64,000 bases of DNA. Origin: Lentisphaeria bacterium. Its GTDB lineage: Bacteria > Verrucomicrobiota > Lentisphaeria > Victivallales > UBA1829. Positions 24 through 37,742 of this stretch are shown here, piece after piece (position 1 is the stretch's first letter; each line of letters starts with the position of its first letter). The position numbers were made by a program, and so were the translations under genes. The notes beneath the pieces are model-generated. The model was not told where the DNA came from, searched no databases, and saw only the letters and a program-made list of their open reading frames with translations. The stretch lies in contig JAFVTF010000025.1 of assembly GCA_017503375.1 (NCBI GenBank), positions 1 to 64,000 on the forward strand, written 5' to 3'.

Positions 24-554
24 ATGAACAAAGTACGCACTCAAGTTATTGCAGAACATGAGTTTGAAAATTTTTATGTAAAACTGTTTGAAAATGATCT
101 TGCTTTGTGCGATGAAAATGGAAATGAAGAGATGGCGATCCGCTATCTTGATATAGAGGAAAATGTAGAGCTGATCGAAAAAAAGCATACTGTAAACAAC
201 ATCATTTTCGGTACATTGGCTACGGTGTTTTTCGGTGCGGCACTTTTCCTTTTCGGCTTTGCAGCGGCTTCCACAATTTATATGGCGGTAAAAGGATTTC
301 TGGATTTGGCAATTATCCTGACCGGCATTGGGTTTATCATTTTCGGTTGTCTGCCTTTGGCTCTGGGCAAATGGTTTGCAGGATTTTGCTGCCGCAACGA
401 GAAATATTATTTCCTTGCAGACCGTGAGCCGGACAGTTGGAACAACAATGCGGCATTGCACATCGGCAAAGAAACCGCTGATGCAAGCTGTTTTATTGAA
501 ACTCTGCAAAAGCTCATTCACACGGCACACCGGAAACAACAGGAGGAAAAATGA
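24..554 (+). CDS. Small two-TM membrane protein of unknown function
   Basis: I do not recognise a family for this 176-residue protein. A soluble N-terminal stretch (about 1-58) is followed by two hydrophobic segments, about 60-82 and 92-116, and a cytosolic-looking C-terminal tail that begins with a Cys-Cys-Arg motif and contains an LQKLIHTAHRK helix. The two helices form a hairpin with a short loop, so both termini are probably on the same side of the inner membrane. Its stop overlaps the ATG of the next gene (ATGA), which implies co-transcription with the lipoprotein, ankyrin and second lipoprotein genes. The upstream region is cut off by the window edge, so promoter and possible earlier operon members are unseen. 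Confidence 0.7.
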   Translation: MNKVRTQVIAEHEFENFYVKLFENDLALCDENGNEEMAIRYLDIEENVELIEKKHTVNNIIFGTLATVFFGAALFLFGFAAASTIYMAVKGFLDLAIILTGIGFIIFGCLPLALGKWFAGFCCRNEKYYFLADREPDSWNNNAALHIGKETADASCFIETLQKLIHTAHRKQQEEK

Positions 555-1342
555 AAAAACTTTTACTTATATTTTCAATATTGATTGCGCTATTGTTGAC
601 GGGCTGTAAAAATAAAACGAATGATATAGCAATAATAAAGTTTTATACGTATAATCATATGGCATATTTGGTGCTGAATGAGCATTTTCTGGGTAAAGAT
701 ACCGATCGTAAGGATAATTTGAAAACTATTCTTTTTGTATTTGAACATTTTTATGATTATTCAGAATGTCCAAAATATTTTTCAAGCTCAGCAAAAGACT
801 TTCTTTCCTCTTTTCGCAACTTGGATTGGGATATGGAGATTGCTGCTCAAAAAAGCAAAGAACTTGAAAAAGAAATGGAAAAGTATTCGCCTTCGATATA
901 TCCCATTTACTTAACCTTGTATCACGATTTTTTTATGTTTCGCGAGGTGCCGAAAATTCTTCCATTGGGAGATGATATGGAAATGCAGAACAGATTTTCA
1001 AAATTTGATAGTCATATCCTGAATTGTTTGGAATATAGTTTTAAAGACCGCAAAATAAATTATTCTTTTCTCAAGCAATCCAGTGATAATATTCCTGAAT
1101 GTATAAGTGCGTTCAATAAAATTGTTTCCCTGGAATATCGCAGAACCGGGAACATGGTATTGTCTCCATGTTTTCTATATTCGGTTGCAATCTTAGCCGG
1201 TTCTTATGACCTGCCAAAGGACTTCTTGAGTTATTTCAGAGGTCAAATCGTGAAAATGATCAGAACGCAAGATGTTAAACATCAAAAGAATATTTTGGAA
1301 GAAATTAATTGCTGTAATCAGTTGTCGGGAAAGAAAAAATGA
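551..1342 (+). CDS. Putative lipoprotein of unknown function
   Basis: The protein has 263 residues and a type II signal peptide: a Lys-Lys start, a hydrophobic core and a lipobox LLTGC ending at Cys19, so it should be lipidated and exported. The mature part is rich in aromatic and charged residues and I see no catalytic motif or known domain. It overlaps both neighbours by the ATGA arrangement, so it belongs to one transcription unit with the two-TM protein before it and the ankyrin protein after it. The gene is noticeably richer in A/T-ending codons than the flanking genes, which could reflect recent acquisition or weak expression. Function unknown. Confidence 0.7.
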   Translation: MKKLLLIFSILIALLLTGCKNKTNDIAIIKFYTYNHMAYLVLNEHFLGKDTDRKDNLKTILFVFEHFYDYSECPKYFSSSAKDFLSSFRNLDWDMEIAAQKSKELEKEMEKYSPSIYPIYLTLYHDFFMFREVPKILPLGDDMEMQNRFSKFDSHILNCLEYSFKDRKINYSFLKQSSDNIPECISAFNKIVSLEYRRTGNMVLSPCFLYSVAILAGSYDLPKDFLSYFRGQIVKMIRTQDVKHQKNILEEINCCNQLSGKKK

Positions 1343-2559
1343 AAAAATTTATTTTAACTTTTATCTTTTGCAGTTCGCTCTTGCTGCCGGTGGCAGACCT
1401 GTATGCACACGGTGATCAGGGAACAGTTCTTTTTGCGCTCGGTTTGAGAAAGGCTTTGGAAACTTTTGCTAAAAAGTTTGAGCTTGCAACCGCCGCTGGA
1501 AAAACACTTACCGTTTATTTTCAAAACGGCGTGGATAGCGAAACGGATATTCTTTATATTGAGCAAAACGGGAAATATTCTGCCGTGGAAATCACGCATT
1601 TACCCGTCGGGATGAATATGGACACTTCAGGCAGAAAATTTTTACTGTTCAACCTTTTACTGACCAATAGCGAAGTCAAAACTGCCGCCATTTTTACCGG
1701 AAAAAACTGGTATGAAATGGATCTGATCGATTTCCCCCGGGATATGGTAACTTTGAATTTGTATGATGGCGAAGAAAAAAGTATGCCTTTTGAACGCTTT
1801 TTCAATGCCCCGTTCCATGCGGAAGAGAGAGCTGACTGGTTGAAAAAATGGAATCGCCGTTACCAAATCAAAACTCCGAATTTCCCGCTGAAAAACGAGG
1901 TCGGAAATTTGGAGCATGAACCGGAAGTCAAAACTGCCAAAGATATTATGCCGGTTTTACGCAACAGTGCAAAAATTGCCAAAGGTCTTGCCGGAGAGTT
2001 GAAAAAATTCCGGAGAACGCCGGAGCCTTTGAAAAAAATTCCGGCGGCAAAGATTGAAGATTGGGCGGATTCAGCAGGAACTTTGGAAGCAAAACTCTAT
2101 AAACTAGCCGCGACTTCCGATGTCGCACAAGCGGAAAAACTGTTGCTGCAACGTGCCGATGTCAATGCCGCATCTCCAAGCGGCAGGACAATCCTGATGG
2201 AAGCCGCATTACACGGAAATATCCCGATGATAAAATTGTTGTTGAAATACAATGCCGACCTTTCAAAAGTCAATTTCAATGGAGAAACCGCGCTTTTTTA
2301 TGCTATATACGGAGAAAGTCAGGAAACTTTGGAGCTTTTGCTCCGCCACAGTTCCCGTCCTTACCAAGTCAACCGTTTCGGAGAAAATCTGTTGATGATC
2401 GCAGTCCGCAAAAATTCTGCCCTCTCCGACTGGCTGCTGAAATTTGAAAAAGAACATTTGAAAACCATTCCATCGTTGTATCAGACACACAAAAATCACG
2501 CCGGAGAAACCGCAGCTGACTATAAAGTGAAATTTGCCACGCAAAGAAAAGGAGAATAA
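1339..2559 (+). CDS. Exported ankyrin-repeat protein
   Basis: A 406-residue protein with a cleavable signal peptide (about 1-24, ending VADLYAHG). The region of about 30-190 has no family I recognise. Residues of about 250-395 carry three to four ankyrin-type repeats, seen as the spaced motifs GRTILMEAALHGN, GETALFYAIYG and GENLLMIAVRK. Ankyrin repeats mediate protein-protein contacts; exported bacterial examples are often envelope-associated or belong to toxin/immunity and defence-type loci, but nothing here fixes a role. It overlaps the lipoprotein gene upstream by 4 bp and is followed after 3 bp by another lipoprotein, so a joint envelope function is a reasonable inference. A second ankyrin lipoprotein occurs at 42264-43403. 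Confidence 0.75.
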   Translation: MKKFILTFIFCSSLLLPVADLYAHGDQGTVLFALGLRKALETFAKKFELATAAGKTLTVYFQNGVDSETDILYIEQNGKYSAVEITHLPVGMNMDTSGRKFLLFNLLLTNSEVKTAAIFTGKNWYEMDLIDFPRDMVTLNLYDGEEKSMPFERFFNAPFHAEERADWLKKWNRRYQIKTPNFPLKNEVGNLEHEPEVKTAKDIMPVLRNSAKIAKGLAGELKKFRRTPEPLKKIPAAKIEDWADSAGTLEAKLYKLAATSDVAQAEKLLLQRADVNAASPSGRTILMEAALHGNIPMIKLLLKYNADLSKVNFNGETALFYAIYGESQETLELLLRHSSRPYQVNRFGENLLMIAVRKNSALSDWLLKFEKEHLKTIPSLYQTHKNHAGETAADYKVKFATQRKGE

Positions 2560-2562
2560 CCG

Positions 2563-3153
2563 GTGAAAAAACTCTATCTTTTCATTATTTCAGGGATTTG
2601 CGGCTGGCTTCTTCCCGGGTGCGTGATTGTCTCCTACACCGAAAAAGCAGATATTTCTGAATTTGTTTTTGAAAAACGCGTTACGGAAAAACACTACTTT
2701 GAACACTTGAAAACCGGTAATAAATTTATCCTGCTTGAAGATTGTTATATCGTCAGGGATTTACCGGAGTTTGAATGGCATATTTTAATTCCGGTATTTT
2801 ATACCGGAGCACCGGATTGTCTCCAACCCCGCGCTGATTTGGAAGAGTGGGAATTGTTAAAGAAAGAATTGCAATCTTTTGAGCAAAAAGGTTCTGTCCG
2901 CTGGTTTTACACCCCGCCTTTAACTTTTGCAATTAACCGGATAAAAGAGAAACTTCCCAAAGGTTCAATTCTGAAAATCCAAGGTTTCTATCGTTCCGGG
3001 CGGTATCTTGACTTTGAAAATGGCGCAAGCAACTATATCTTATTGCAAGATGAAAAGTCCGGCAAAGAATTTTATTTATGGGTGCATGCCGTTGATGACA
3101 CTTACAATAAACGCCATTGGATAAAGCCGTATCATGGGAGGAATGATCTATGA
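2563..3153 (+). CDS. Putative lipoprotein of unknown function, GTG start
   Basis: A 196-residue protein that begins with GTG at 2563, preceded by AAGGAG in the end of the upstream gene, which supports this start. A signal sequence ends in the lipobox LLPGC (Cys19), predicting a lipid-anchored envelope protein. The mature part contains a segment (about 125-165) with KGSILKIQGFYRSGRYLDF that could be a small beta domain binding a ligand, but no family is evident. It is the last gene of the overlapping four-gene set that starts at 24. A weak stem (AACTGAC with GTCAGTT) lies just behind the stop codon and could attenuate transcription before the next promoter. Confidence 0.65.
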   Translation: MKKLYLFIISGICGWLLPGCVIVSYTEKADISEFVFEKRVTEKHYFEHLKTGNKFILLEDCYIVRDLPEFEWHILIPVFYTGAPDCLQPRADLEEWELLKKELQSFEQKGSVRWFYTPPLTFAINRIKEKLPKGSILKIQGFYRSGRYLDFENGASNYILLQDEKSGKEFYLWVHAVDDTYNKRHWIKPYHGRNDL

Positions 3154-3211
3154 AAAAGAAAACTGACAATAATTACTGGCAAAGTCAGTTACCAGCACAA
3201 TCTTCTTTTTC

Positions 3212-3324
3212 AGTCGAAACTTGGTCATTTTTTTGATGAACTTTCGATCAGATGCTTGATTTTTTTCTGTATGCGATGTATATTTTACTCTGAAGTAAGT
3301 CAGAAAATCGATCAAGTTTCGACT
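3212..3324. repeat. 15-bp inverted repeat flanking the DUF4143 ATPase promoter
   Basis: The left arm AGTCGAAACTTGGTC (3212-3226) and the right arm GATCAAGTTTCGACT (3310-3324) are inverted copies with one mismatch. They enclose 83 bp that contain the predicted promoter of the downstream ATPase gene. They could be two operator half-regions for looping, the ends of a small mobile unit, or sites acted on by the ATPase's partner. Confidence 0.7.
3256..3284 (+). promoter_or_regulatory. Predicted promoter of the DUF4143 ATPase
   Basis: TTGATT (3256-3261), 17-bp spacer, TATATT (3279-3284), reading towards the gene at 3342. It lies inside the 3212-3324 inverted repeat. Confidence 0.6.
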
Positions 3325-3341
3325 ATGCGGAGATAGAAGAT

Positions 3342-4631
3342 ATGCAATTCAAACGTGAAAAATACTTAAAACAGTTGATTGAACGTATGCGCAATGGTGA
3401 AATCAAGGTTATTACCGGGATTCGCCGTTGCGGCAAAAGTTATCTGCTGCTCAATTTATTTACCGGCTATCTGCGTTCAACGGGGGTTGATGATGAACAT
3501 ATCATTGCGTTGCCCCTTGATGACGATATAAATGAAAAATATCGTGATCCGCAGGAACTTTCCGCTTTTTTGCGCTCAAAAGTGAAAAACGATTCTGCAA
3601 CTTATTACATTCTTTTGGATGAAATTCAATTTGCCATCTCCAGAGAAGAGTTACGGAATCCGGATAAGCCGGTCAGATTATACAGCGTACTTAATGGGTT
3701 GCTGCGTTTGCCCAATGTTGATATTTATGTTACCGGAAGCAACTCCAAAATGCTTTCCAAAGATATTATGACAGAATTTCGCGGGCGGGGAGATTCTGTT
3801 GAAATCCATCCGCTTTCGTTCAAAGAATTTTTTGAAGCTTTTGGCGGAGATCGGACCACGGCTTTTGAGGAATATGCCGTATACGGCGGTTTGCCGCTGG
3901 TGTGGGCAAAGAAAAGTGATGAAAGCAAGTTCAATTATTTGCAAAATCTTTTCCGGGAAGTTTACTACAAAGATATTCAGGAACGGTATAACATTGAGTT
4001 CCCGGATATTCTGGATGAACTTGTCGATGTGTTGTGTTCTGCAATAGGCTCTCTTACTAATGTATCAAAACTGACCAACACGTTACGCAGTGTAAAAAAC
4101 AGTAAAGTCAGCAACGATACCATTGCAGACTATCTGAAATTCCTGACCGAAGCTTTTTTATTTCATCAGGCAAAAAGATATGATATCAAAGGCAAAAAAT
4201 ATTTTGAATATCCCTCTAAATTCTACTGTGAAGATATTGGTTTGCGTAATATTCACTTGAATTTGCGCCAACAGGAAGAAACGCATATTATGGAAAATAT
4301 TATCTACAATGATTTGCGTATCAAAGGGTATACTGTGGATGTCGGTGTCGTTAAGATCGTTGAAAACGGAGAAGATGGTAAAACGCATCAGAAAAGTTGT
4401 GAAATTGATTTTATCGCCACCAAAGGAATAAAAAAATATTATATTCAGTCAGCATTGACTGTGAGCGACCGGGAAAAGGCTGCACAGGAAACCCGTCCGC
4501 TTCTGGCGGTAAATGATTTTTTCCGGAAAATCATAGTTTCAAAAACTCCAATGAAGCCTTGGGTTGATGAAAATGGAGTACTGCATATCGGATTATATGA
4601 TTTTCTGCTGAATGATGATATCTTTGAATAA
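3342..4631 (+). CDS. AAA-family ATPase with DUF4143 domain
   Basis: A 429-residue member of the AAA_14/DUF4143 family. The N-terminal ATPase shows Walker A as GIRRCGKS (about residues 26-33) and Walker B as YILLDEIQ, followed by the sensor-like VTGSNSKML and the family signature HPLSFKEFFEAFG. The C-terminal half (about 200-420) is the DUF4143 region, with a nuclease-like ending that contains EIDFIATKG and KYYIQSALTV, resembling the E-hxD-xxK pattern of PD-(D/E)xK folds. Members are common and highly duplicated in gut bacteria; their cellular role is not settled. The gene has its own promoter and an inverted repeat around it. It ends with a one-base overlap with the following gene. Confidence 0.92.
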   Translation: MQFKREKYLKQLIERMRNGEIKVITGIRRCGKSYLLLNLFTGYLRSTGVDDEHIIALPLDDDINEKYRDPQELSAFLRSKVKNDSATYYILLDEIQFAISREELRNPDKPVRLYSVLNGLLRLPNVDIYVTGSNSKMLSKDIMTEFRGRGDSVEIHPLSFKEFFEAFGGDRTTAFEEYAVYGGLPLVWAKKSDESKFNYLQNLFREVYYKDIQERYNIEFPDILDELVDVLCSAIGSLTNVSKLTNTLRSVKNSKVSNDTIADYLKFLTEAFLFHQAKRYDIKGKKYFEYPSKFYCEDIGLRNIHLNLRQQEETHIMENIIYNDLRIKGYTVDVGVVKIVENGEDGKTHQKSCEIDFIATKGIKKYYIQSALTVSDREKAAQETRPLLAVNDFFRKIIVSKTPMKPWVDENGVLHIGLYDFLLNDDIFE

Positions 4632-33614: not shown

Positions 33615-34909
33615 TGGAAGACAGTTTGTTTTCAAATTTAGCCGGCAGACCGTTGGCGGACCGGATGAGACCCGGAGAACTGGATGGAATCGTAGGTCAG
33701 GAACATTTGCTTGGTCCGGATGGTCCTTTGCGCCGGATGATTGATTCCGGTAAACTTTCCAGTTTCATATTGTGGGGTCCTCCCGGATGCGGAAAAACAA
33801 CCGCCGCCCGGATCATGGCGAACAATACCAGCTTGCATTTTACAGCTCTTTCCGCTGTCTTTTCCGGAATTGCTGATTTGAGAAAGGCATTTGATGAAGC
33901 CGCAAGACGCAGAATGGCAGGGGAGGGAACTCTGCTGTTTGTGGATGAAATCCACCGTTTCAACAGGGCGCAGCAGGATGGTTTTCTCCCGTATGTGGAA
34001 AACGGAACTGTGGTGCTTGTCGGTGCGACAACAGAAAATCCCTCTTTCGAGCTGAACAGCGCATTGCTCTCCCGGTGTAAAGTTTTTGTGATGAATCCCC
34101 TTGATGATGGAGCTCTGGAAAAAATCATCCAGCGTGCGGAGTCTGTTGTCGGGCGTGCTTTGCCTGTTACTCCGGAGGCCCGTGCAGAATTGCGGAAGAT
34201 GGCAGATGGTGACGGAAGATATTGTGTGAATCTGATTGAATCTGTGTTTGATTCTGTCCGTCCGGATGAAATTTTAGATGTGGAAACGCTGGGGAAAATC
34301 ATTCAGCACCGGGCTCCGATGTATGATAAGGACAAGGAAGGCCATTATAATCTGATCAGTGCGCTTCACAAATCTCTGCGCGGTTCGGATGTGGATGCCG
34401 CGCTTTACTGGGCGGCCCGGATGGTCAAAGGCGGAGAAGATCCGCTTTACATATTGCGGAGATTGACCCGTTTTGCCATGGAAGATGTGAGTCTGGCGGA
34501 TCCGGATGCTCTGCAGGTGGCTGTCAATGCGTGGGATACGTATGAACGGCTGGGTTCTCCGGAAGGAGATATTGCGATAGCGGAACTGGTGATTTATCTG
34601 GCAACTGCGCCGAAGTCCAACAGTGCGGAAGTTGCCTGGGATAATGCATTGCGTGCGGCAGACCGTTTTTCATCGTTGACCCCGCCCGCTCATATTCTGA
34701 ATGCGCCGACAAAACTGATGTCGCAGCTTGGATATGGCAAAGGGTATATTTACGACCATGATACAAAAGAGGGTTTCTCCGGACAGAACTATTTTCCGGA
34801 AGGGATGCCCCGGATGAAACTTTATAAGCCCACAGACAGAGGTTTTGAAAGCGAGATCCGGCGCCGTCTGGACTGGTGGGAAAGCCTGCGGAGAAAGAAA
34901 AATTCATGA
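33611..34909 (+). CDS. rarA: Replication-associated recombination protein A
   Basis: A 432-residue AAA+ ATPase related to clamp-loader and RuvB proteins, acting at stalled replication forks. Walker A is GPPGCGKTT (about 56-64), Walker B LLFVDEIHRFN (about 109-119), sensor 1 VGATTENPSFELN, and the RarA-specific C-terminal tetramerisation region holds HKSLRGSDVDAALYWAARM and LMSQLGYGKGYIYDHD. It overlaps the CYTH gene and the membrane-protein gene by ATGA arrangements. This is distinct from ruvB at 47937. Confidence 0.95.
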   Translation: MMEDSLFSNLAGRPLADRMRPGELDGIVGQEHLLGPDGPLRRMIDSGKLSSFILWGPPGCGKTTAARIMANNTSLHFTALSAVFSGIADLRKAFDEAARRRMAGEGTLLFVDEIHRFNRAQQDGFLPYVENGTVVLVGATTENPSFELNSALLSRCKVFVMNPLDDGALEKIIQRAESVVGRALPVTPEARAELRKMADGDGRYCVNLIESVFDSVRPDEILDVETLGKIIQHRAPMYDKDKEGHYNLISALHKSLRGSDVDAALYWAARMVKGGEDPLYILRRLTRFAMEDVSLADPDALQVAVNAWDTYERLGSPEGDIAIAELVIYLATAPKSNSAEVAWDNALRAADRFSSLTPPAHILNAPTKLMSQLGYGKGYIYDHDTKEGFSGQNYFPEGMPRMKLYKPTDRGFESEIRRRLDWWESLRRKKNS

Positions 34910-35538
34910 ATCCGGATTACACACATTCAACTGCGGAAAAAATGAAAGAGACGTGCTGTCATGTTCTCTTTTTTGCAGTTTTGATTTCCGGTGTGCTGCT
35001 GGCATATCAGGCATTTTCAAAAGGACAGATGGGATATCTGATTTTCGGAGTGCTGCCGTGTGGATTGCTTGCGGCTGCCCTTTTCATAAAATTTTATCTT
35101 CCGAAAATCGGTGAGTGGTTCAGTTTCAGTCTGCTGTTTCCGCGGAAATTTCTGAAAAAGGCCCCGGTTGTTTTATCTCCGTTTATCGGACTTTTGACGA
35201 ATGAAAAATATCAGGAGGCATTTTCCGGATTGCAGCCATTGGCTCAGCAGTATCCGGAAAATCCGGATGTGGTTCTGCTGTTTGCTCAGTCCTGTATGAA
35301 ACTGCATGGTACTGAAGAAATTGGTTTTACTGTGATGGAACAGCATTTTGCATTGGATGACCGGAGTGCATCGAAGAACCATTTGAAGCTGTTGTTTTTC
35401 TATGCAGATAAAGCAATGGAGTATCAATATACGGATTCCCTGATTCCGGTTTTGACCAGGGAAAGAGAAAAAGAGTTTTATACAGATTCTGAACGGAAAG
35501 CGATCCGGATCCGTTTGGATTCTCTCAGGAGGATGTGA
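34906..35538 (+). CDS. Two-TM membrane protein of unknown function
   Basis: A 210-residue protein that starts at the ATG overlapping the rarA stop; a start 30 bases upstream inside rarA is less likely. Two hydrophobic segments (about 18-38 and 44-64) form a hairpin, and the cytosolic C-terminal part (about 90-210) looks helical, with FSGLQPLAQQYPENPDVVLLFAQ resembling a TPR-like motif. No family recognised. Its stop region carries the AGGAGG that serves the following double PilT gene. Because it is translationally linked to that ATPase, it could be its membrane anchor or a pilus-machine component; that is inference. Confidence 0.65.
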   Translation: MNPDYTHSTAEKMKETCCHVLFFAVLISGVLLAYQAFSKGQMGYLIFGVLPCGLLAAALFIKFYLPKIGEWFSFSLLFPRKFLKKAPVVLSPFIGLLTNEKYQEAFSGLQPLAQQYPENPDVVLLFAQSCMKLHGTEEIGFTVMEQHFALDDRSASKNHLKLLFFYADKAMEYQYTDSLIPVLTREREKEFYTDSERKAIRIRLDSLRRM

Positions 35539-35540
35539 AT

Positions 35541-37742
35541 ATGTCAATCGAACTGTTTCTGATGAAAGCTGTCAGCGGAGGATATTCAGATTTTCTGGCT
35601 GCCGCAGGAAAAAGTCCTTCCTATCGTCTCAGAGGTGAAGTGATTCATGATAAAAACGTGATTTGTTCCGATGAGGAGGTCACGACATTCCGCCGGGAGG
35701 TTCTTTCTCCGGAGATGGAGGAGATGTATCTGAAAAACGGTTCGGTTGATGCATCCTATTCCCTTGGAGATTCCCGGTTCCGTATCAATTTTTACGATAC
35801 ACTTTCCGGTTCAGCCATGGCAGTCCGTCCGATTCATTCCGGCAACAAACTGTTTTTCAGAAAGCTGAATCTTCCTGAAAAGCTCCGCGAAATCTGTGAA
35901 GCCCCCAGAGGATTGATTCTGATTGCCGGAACAACGGGATGCGGAAAATCCACCACGATGGCAGCAATGATCAATCATATCAATCAGAGTAAAGCCAGAC
36001 ATATATTAACGCTGGAAGACCCCATTGAATTTCTGCATGAAGATGTGAACAGCTACATTTCTCAGCGTGAAATCAATACGGATACCGGCAGTTTTTCTAC
36101 GGCGTTGCGAAGTGCTATGCGGGAAAATCCGGACGTGATCGTTGTCGGTGAAATGCGGGATATGGAAACAATGCAGACCGCTGTCAATGCCGCATTGACC
36201 GGACATCTGGTGATCTCAACCGTTCATACAGCGGACACTGTTCTTGCTGTTGAACGGATCGTGAATATGTTTCCGGAAAACCAGCGGAGTCAGGCCGCAA
36301 TAGATCTGGGATTGTCGCTGAATGCAATCATCGCACAACGACTGGTTCCTGCTGTTGACGGAAAAGGTTCCATTCCGGCTGTTGAAATTCTGACAGCCAC
36401 TCCGACAGTCAGAAAGCTTATCGGAGAGATGGATTACAGTTCTCTGGAAGATGTCCTGCATCAGAACAGCGGGTTGGGGATGATGCAGTTCAACCGGGCA
36501 TTGTATCAGCTGTACAAACTCGGCAGGATCACTCTGACTTCCGCAAGGGAGGCTTCCACTTCCAAAGAAGAACTGGATTTGCTTGTCAAGGGAATGGAAA
36601 GCGGTGCCGATACATTCCGGAACCGTTACGGAGATCCGGCAGATGAGGAAGAGAGCGGTTTGATGGTGGATATGCGCCGTCTGCTGCGGACCGCATTGGC
36701 AAATCAGGCAAGTGACCTGCATCTTTCCTGCGGTGTCAGCCCCGTTTTGCGTATTCACGGAACATTGCGGAAAATGGAATTGCCTCCTTTGACACGCATG
36801 GATATTCAGCGTTTGCTTTACAGTATTCTGAATCAGCATCAGCGGGTGGAGCTGGAAGAAAAGAAAGAATTGGATTTTGCGCTTTCCGTAATATTGAACC
36901 GTAATGAGTTCGGAGAAGAAAAGGAATCCGCAAGATTCCGCGTGAATGCTTTTTACCAGAGAGGCAGCCTTGGTGTTGTCTGCCGGGTCGTCAATACCGC
37001 TATTCCGAGTCCGGATGTTTTGACTTTGCCGCCGCAGCTTGTCAGGATGGCATTCAAACAGCAGGGGTTGATTCTGATCACCGGACCGACAGGCAGCGGA
37101 AAATCAACCACTCTTGCCAGTTTGATCAACCAGATCAATCTTCATTCCGCAAAACATATCATAACATTGGAAGACCCCATCGAATATGTTCATGGAAATA
37201 TCAATTCTGTCATTGAACAGCGGGAACTTCATGAGGATACTTTAAGTTTTGCCACAGCTTTGCGTTTTGCCCTGCGTCAGGACCCGGATGTGATCATGGT
37301 CGGTGAAATGCGCGATAAAGAAACCATGGCTGCAACGCTGACAGCCGCCGAAACCGGACACCTTGTGTTTGCCACAATTCATACAAATAATGCACCGCAG
37401 ACGATTGACCGTATCGTGGATTCATTCCCCACCGATCAGCAGAATCAGATCCGGCTGCAGCTGGCAGGTGTCCTGCTCGGAGTCCTTTCTCAAAGATTGC
37501 TTCCCAGAATAGACGGGGCAGGGCGCGTGGCAGCGTTTGAACTGATGGCAGGAACACCGCCTGTTCTGGCTCTGGTCAGAGACGGCAGAACCCATCAGCT
37601 GCAATCAGTGATCGAAACCAGTCATAAAGACGGAATGTGTACATTGGAAAAATCACTGGAAGAACTGTATCTGCAAGGTCTTATCACTGAAGATCAGAAG
37701 ATGTCCTACCGGGCGGATTATCAGCAGACGAACAGTTTTTGA
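35541..37742 (+). CDS. Tandem PilT-PilT twitching-motility ATPase fusion
   Basis: A 733-residue protein with two complete retraction-ATPase modules, each normally a separate protein of about 350-380 residues. Module 1 (about 1-345) has Walker A GTTGCGKST (130-138), DPIEF, Walker B VIVVGEMRD (199-207) and the His box STVHTADT. Module 2 (about 376-733) starts with the typical ASDLHL..G..P..R..G N-terminal domain and has GPTGSGKST (515-523), DPIEYVH, VIMVGEMRD (584-592) and ATIHTNNAP. Module 1 has only a degenerate N-terminal domain (SDFLAAAG). I chose the ATG at 35541, 8 bp after AGGAGG. PilT and PilU drive type IV pilus retraction together; this may be both in one chain. No other pil genes are adjacent. 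Confidence 0.92.
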   Translation: MSIELFLMKAVSGGYSDFLAAAGKSPSYRLRGEVIHDKNVICSDEEVTTFRREVLSPEMEEMYLKNGSVDASYSLGDSRFRINFYDTLSGSAMAVRPIHSGNKLFFRKLNLPEKLREICEAPRGLILIAGTTGCGKSTTMAAMINHINQSKARHILTLEDPIEFLHEDVNSYISQREINTDTGSFSTALRSAMRENPDVIVVGEMRDMETMQTAVNAALTGHLVISTVHTADTVLAVERIVNMFPENQRSQAAIDLGLSLNAIIAQRLVPAVDGKGSIPAVEILTATPTVRKLIGEMDYSSLEDVLHQNSGLGMMQFNRALYQLYKLGRITLTSAREASTSKEELDLLVKGMESGADTFRNRYGDPADEEESGLMVDMRRLLRTALANQASDLHLSCGVSPVLRIHGTLRKMELPPLTRMDIQRLLYSILNQHQRVELEEKKELDFALSVILNRNEFGEEKESARFRVNAFYQRGSLGVVCRVVNTAIPSPDVLTLPPQLVRMAFKQQGLILITGPTGSGKSTTLASLINQINLHSAKHIITLEDPIEYVHGNINSVIEQRELHEDTLSFATALRFALRQDPDVIMVGEMRDKETMAATLTAAETGHLVFATIHTNNAPQTIDRIVDSFPTDQQNQIRLQLAGVLLGVLSQRLLPRIDGAGRVAAFELMAGTPPVLALVRDGRTHQLQSVIETSHKDGMCTLEKSLEELYLQGLITEDQKMSYRADYQQTNSF

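Follow-up and report, generated by a model that had tools for sequence, protein, structure and literature searches.

A conserved single-chain fusion of a PilU-side and a PilT-side ATPase module in Lentisphaeria and two further bacterial phyla

The window, a stretch of 64,000 nucleotides from the genome of a Lentisphaeria bacterium, encodes on its forward strand a fused PilU-side/PilT-side retraction ATPase (35541..37742; 733 amino acids plus stop). The frame is uninterrupted from the ATG at 35541 to the stop codon ending at 37742, giving a single chain. This ATG is the likely start codon, with a GTG at 35535 as the other candidate, because a Shine-Dalgarno sequence (AGGAGG) lies just 5' of it and the preceding gene on the same strand (34876..35538, about 200-220 amino acids) stops 2 bases before it. 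The chain comprises a PilU-side PilT-family ATPase module (module 1, residues 1-350; 35541..36590, + strand); a linker (residues 351-376; 36591..36668, + strand) in which a GMESG..FR..Y-like conserved segment is followed by an acidic variable part; and a PilT-side ATPase module with the full motif set (module 2, residues 377-733; 36669..37739, + strand).

Membership of the PilT/PilU family was judged by the NCBIfam model TIGR01420 (pilT_fam), whose curated cut-off is 319.1 bits. A search with the full chain returned two pilT_fam stretches, and the modules taken separately score 374 bits (module 1) and 442 bits (module 2), both above the cut-off; they are 43% identical to each other over 254 residues. 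The Walker A lysine, Asp-box glutamate, Walker B glutamate and His-box histidine are intact in both (Lys136, Glu163, Glu204, His222 and His229 in module 1, where leucine replaces Glu219; Lys521, Glu548, Glu589, Glu604, His607 and His614 in module 2). An AlphaFold2 monomer model (58 fused sequences) predicts two confident PilT folds (mean pLDDT 87.5), each with a PAS-like N-terminal and a RecA-like C-terminal domain, on either side of a linker with low-confidence stretches (355-360 and 369-372); its pTM is 0.53, and the relative orientation of the modules is uncertain. The top Foldseek matches of the model are PilT4 (6ojx; TM 0.92, target-normalised) and its relatives, with PilU 9n32 also high. 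The initial annotation had read two full PilT-type ATPase modules with intact Walker A and B motifs in this frame, as these results confirm. It had also described the N-terminal domain of module 1 as degenerate; that description is not clearly borne out, since the domain aligns to PilT from residue 6 with a pLDDT of about 84-91 and is, by sequence and model, divergent but complete. Module 2 shares fold, motifs and tree side (see below) with known PilT proteins (Geobacter metallireducens PilT4, 6OJX; Pseudomonas aeruginosa PilT, 3JVV). Those consist of a single module of about 350 amino acids, as is typical of the TIGR01420 family, whereas here the PilT side is the C-terminal half of a 733-amino-acid chain with two modules in one open reading frame.

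The same two-module gene is found in many other genomes, many of those compared being metagenome-assembled (MAGs). All 61 of the nearest genomes have some match, in most cases a full-length two-module match at 44-79% identity. Among the 388 genomes of the window's phylum that were examined, the fusion is present in about 88 of the 132 from the class Lentisphaeria (a hand count from the listing that includes 2 partial matches) and in none of the 256 from other classes. Outside the phylum, it is carried by two MAGs titled Myxococcota, by 5 of 5 genomes in the phylum in which the genome set places one of these, and by 37 of 237 genomes from the phylum to which a Proteobacteria-titled MAG belongs (E<=1e-145). 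It was found in none of 199 genomes that share their phylum with a Planctomycetota MAG. Another 249, from the phylum that includes a Pseudomonadales MAG, yielded two matches, both of them in-frame read-through of a TGA and not fusions. A contig scan with peptide patterns derived from the query alone missed most of this distribution. More than 100 other genomes carry the gene at full length and without a break, so a frameshift or assembly artefact is excluded and the proposed head-to-tail fusion is genuine. The architecture, which had been considered in relation to Lentisphaerota, is indeed widespread in Lentisphaeria, but its presence in two further phyla means that it is not restricted to Lentisphaerota. 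No published report of it was found in the open-access literature.

Several related proteins differ in architecture. In both Myxococcota-titled MAGs the fusion is extended at its N-terminus, and in one of them (locus L043; the other is L044) the added part is DUF4388 by Pfam. In another class of the window's phylum, one genome has two adjacent, separate PilT-family genes that share a frame and are divided by a single TGA (L133, G298:C30), and a genome of the same class encodes a very divergent two-module PilT-family protein of 721 amino acids with changed active-site motifs (L134, G132:C84). A match on an Acetobacter plasmid covers most of the query and is a long protein annotated as PilT/PilU-family, in which only one PilT module is above threshold.

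In phylogenetic trees, module 1 forms one clade (100/99) and module 2 another (96/88). Because both clades split Lentisphaeria from the rows of other phyla, the sequences point to a single fusion event. A topology with the two modules as sisters is rejected (p=0.003), which rules out a recent internal (tandem) duplication. When the tree is rooted with PilB/GspE, module 1 falls in a clade with PilU, Thermus thermophilus PilT2 and unfused proteins of Planctomycetota and Lentisphaeria (100/98), and module 2 takes its place among PilTs that have been characterised (2ewv and 5zfq, together with a Pseudomonadales PilT); the deep nodes of the latter half are weak (80/73), as is the monophyly of module 2 once the outgroup is added (50/9). 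The chain order is therefore PilU-side, then PilT-side. Module 1 is thus comparable to PilU (P. aeruginosa 9N32; Vibrio cholerae PilU structures), differing in being covalently joined to a PilT-side partner and in not being resolved as the sister of PilU: a clade of module 1 and PilU is neither preferred nor rejected (p=0.36). The suggestion that module 1 is PilU-like is accordingly upheld as to its side of the rooted tree, but orthology to PilU is not demonstrated. T. thermophilus PilT2 (5FL3) and the unfused PilT-like proteins that Planctomycetota and Lentisphaeria contribute to the PilU-side clade are, unlike the fusion, separate single-module proteins, and several unfused proteins share a C-terminal tail like NP.EL.L..KG. 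That the fusion is real, ancient and common to many bacteria is well supported by these comparisons.

Conservation was counted over 103 distinct, aligned fused proteins. The catalytic residues of module 1 are kept almost throughout (Lys136 and Glu163 in 103/103, Glu204 and His222 in 102/103, His229 in 98/103), and the matching sites of module 2 are invariant except for one Walker A lysine. The glutamate of the AETGH motif, always present in module 2 and kept by PilU 9n32, occurs in module 1 of none of the 103 proteins; its position (Glu219) is taken by leucine in 87, methionine in 13, and isoleucine, glutamine and arginine in one each, and the outgroup PilB/GspE proteins also carry leucine there. 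In P. aeruginosa PilT the equivalent residue, Glu219, belongs to the interface of the packing unit (PMC6858323). R81, R194 and R239, also interface residues, are nearly always retained in both modules. Mean pairwise identity is 47% for module 1 and 58% for module 2, with module 2 the higher in 5209 of 5253 pairs; module 1 thus evolves faster. Some second copies (L154, L156, L157 and L159) show further losses in module 1, with Asp-box or His-box residues gone in some of these paralogues. The GMESG..FR..Y stretch at the start of the linker is conserved across phyla, and the linker spans 16-24 residues in the part measured. The K36-D366 salt bridge reported in V. cholerae could not be followed in the fusion, the position that we matched to PilT Lys36 not being conserved in module 2.

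The gene upstream of the fusion (34876..35538) encodes two long N-terminal hydrophobic helices followed by a helical, TPR-like part (fold of low confidence) and has no Pfam match. A homologue lies directly 5' of the fusion in five other Lentisphaeria loci (six loci counting the window), and the two genes are likely to be cotranscribed. Among the compared loci this gene alone, in those six, is a fixed operon partner; the other phyla that carry the fusion have no common neighbours around it. Certain loci with a second copy (L156, at 409-3969, L154 and L159; genomes G209, G282 and G299) encode a large protein two genes 5' of the fused paralogue; that of L156 (1187 amino acids) unites in a single chain a zinc-ribbon-like start, a Ser/Thr kinase domain, a stretch of low complexity and an ATPase of the GspE/PilB type. 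At L158, a downstream protein of 1062 amino acids has a start similar to that of the L156 protein and a divergent, ATPase-like end.

The fusion gene is in no pil operon. A separate pilT (369-374 amino acids) lies within a pilB-pilB-pilT-pilC run on another contig of the same genome, C32, where both PilB proteins carry MshEN. Besides the fusion and this PilT, no further PilT-family protein was found in the genome, which is 93.6% complete; thus, of the separate pilT and pilU genes that the initial annotation had in mind, pilT is present and pilU was not found. Further T2SSE/T2SSF sets are located on contigs C63, C97 and C7, the other T2SSE genes of the genome including GspE-like and, as read from the sequence, TadA/CpaF-like ones, and PilC-type T2SSF domains are also present. 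Two TadA/CpaF-like ATPases, on C97 and C7 (L005 and L006), have an apparent FHA-like start on the same reading. The type IV pilin N-methylation motif (PF07963) is matched 135 times over many contigs of the genome, which amounts to a very large repertoire of pilin-like proteins.

PilT and PilU each assemble into a homohexamer of their own, and the two interact (PMC6821130). In an AlphaFold model the C-terminal domain of PilU contacts the N-terminal domains of two adjacent PilT subunits (PMC13142100), a cryo-ET study, as cited in that paper, places PilU-like density directly under PilT, and the C-terminal tail of PilU has been suggested to stabilise the contact (PMC12607626). We consider it about an even chance (probability roughly 0.5) that the fused protein is a permanently coupled two-ring type IV pilus retraction motor, in which the PilU-side and PilT-side modules are covalently linked. 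In the ring arrangement that we infer, six chains would form two stacked hexameric rings: module 2 would be the PilT ring next to the membrane, engaging PilC and driving the removal of pilins, and module 1 a PilU-like ring below it, with its C-terminal face against the N-terminal face of module 2. The linker would stand in for the non-covalent contact between PilU tail and PilT, so that the rings would move together at a fixed 1:1 stoichiometry and could pull under higher load. If, as in models of 2025-26, the C-terminal face of PilU stacks on the N-terminal face of PilT, such an arrangement needs a PilU-side C-terminus joined to a PilT-side N-terminus, whereas a linker between modules in the opposite order would need to reach across the two rings; this argument is geometric and not a measurement. 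The module 1 ring may differ from that of PilT, given the hydrophobic residue at the Glu219 position and the degradation of module 1 in some paralogues. A pilus motor is consistent with the PilB, PilC and pilin-type proteins encoded in the genome. The fusion probably serves the type IV pilus machine of C32, adding to the separate PilT a second retraction motor for high loads, but which pilus it serves is less certain because the gene is in no pil operon.

Against stacked rings stands, besides the uncertain orientation of the modules in the AlphaFold2 model, the fact that the linker could equally connect adjacent subunits of a mixed ring. Three chains might then build a single pseudo-hexamer of alternating modules 1 and 2, an arrangement that the linker length allows, that agrees with the altered position 219 in module 1, and that could fix the alternating OCOCOC C3 states in which PilT crystallises (PMC6858323). 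We think this unlikely, since separate PilT and PilU form homohexamers independently of each other (PMC6821130) and both modules of the fusion retain R81, R194 and R239, although the comparison of interface residues is not decisive between stacked and mixed rings. It is likewise doubtful that module 2 is the working PilT ring and that module 1, with little ATPase work of its own, chiefly regulates or anchors: the faster evolution of module 1, its consistent lack of Glu219, the loss of Asp-box or His-box residues in some paralogues and the weak in vitro ATPase activity of PilU alone (PMC13142100) would fit such a role, but retention of Lys136, Glu163, Glu204 and His229 across phyla in most members suggests selection for ATP hydrolysis. 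Service to another filament system (T2SS-like or Tad-like) instead of a type IV pilus, to which the additional T2SSE/T2SSF sets and the lack of a pil operon around the fusion might point, is very improbable, as both modules are PilT-family by the curated model and the loci on C63, C97 and C7 already encode GspE-like or TadA/CpaF-like ATPases of their own.

The manner in which PilT and PilU cooperate is an open question; AlphaFold models and one cryo-ET study have led to the proposal of stacked rings, for which the literature calls for experiments to validate orientation and stoichiometry (PMC12607626, PMC13142100). We suggest, tentatively and with slightly less than even confidence, that the fusion is an ancient, widely kept single-chain dual motor with 12 ATPase sites in one obligatory assembly, whose order of PilU side before PilT side is natural evidence for a double ring with PilU under PilT. 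A naturally occurring fusion whose linker is conserved and whose order is fixed offers independent evolutionary support for stacked PilU-PilT rings. It is also a convenient construct for cryo-EM and for measuring force, since a single polypeptide should give both rings in a 1:1 ratio.
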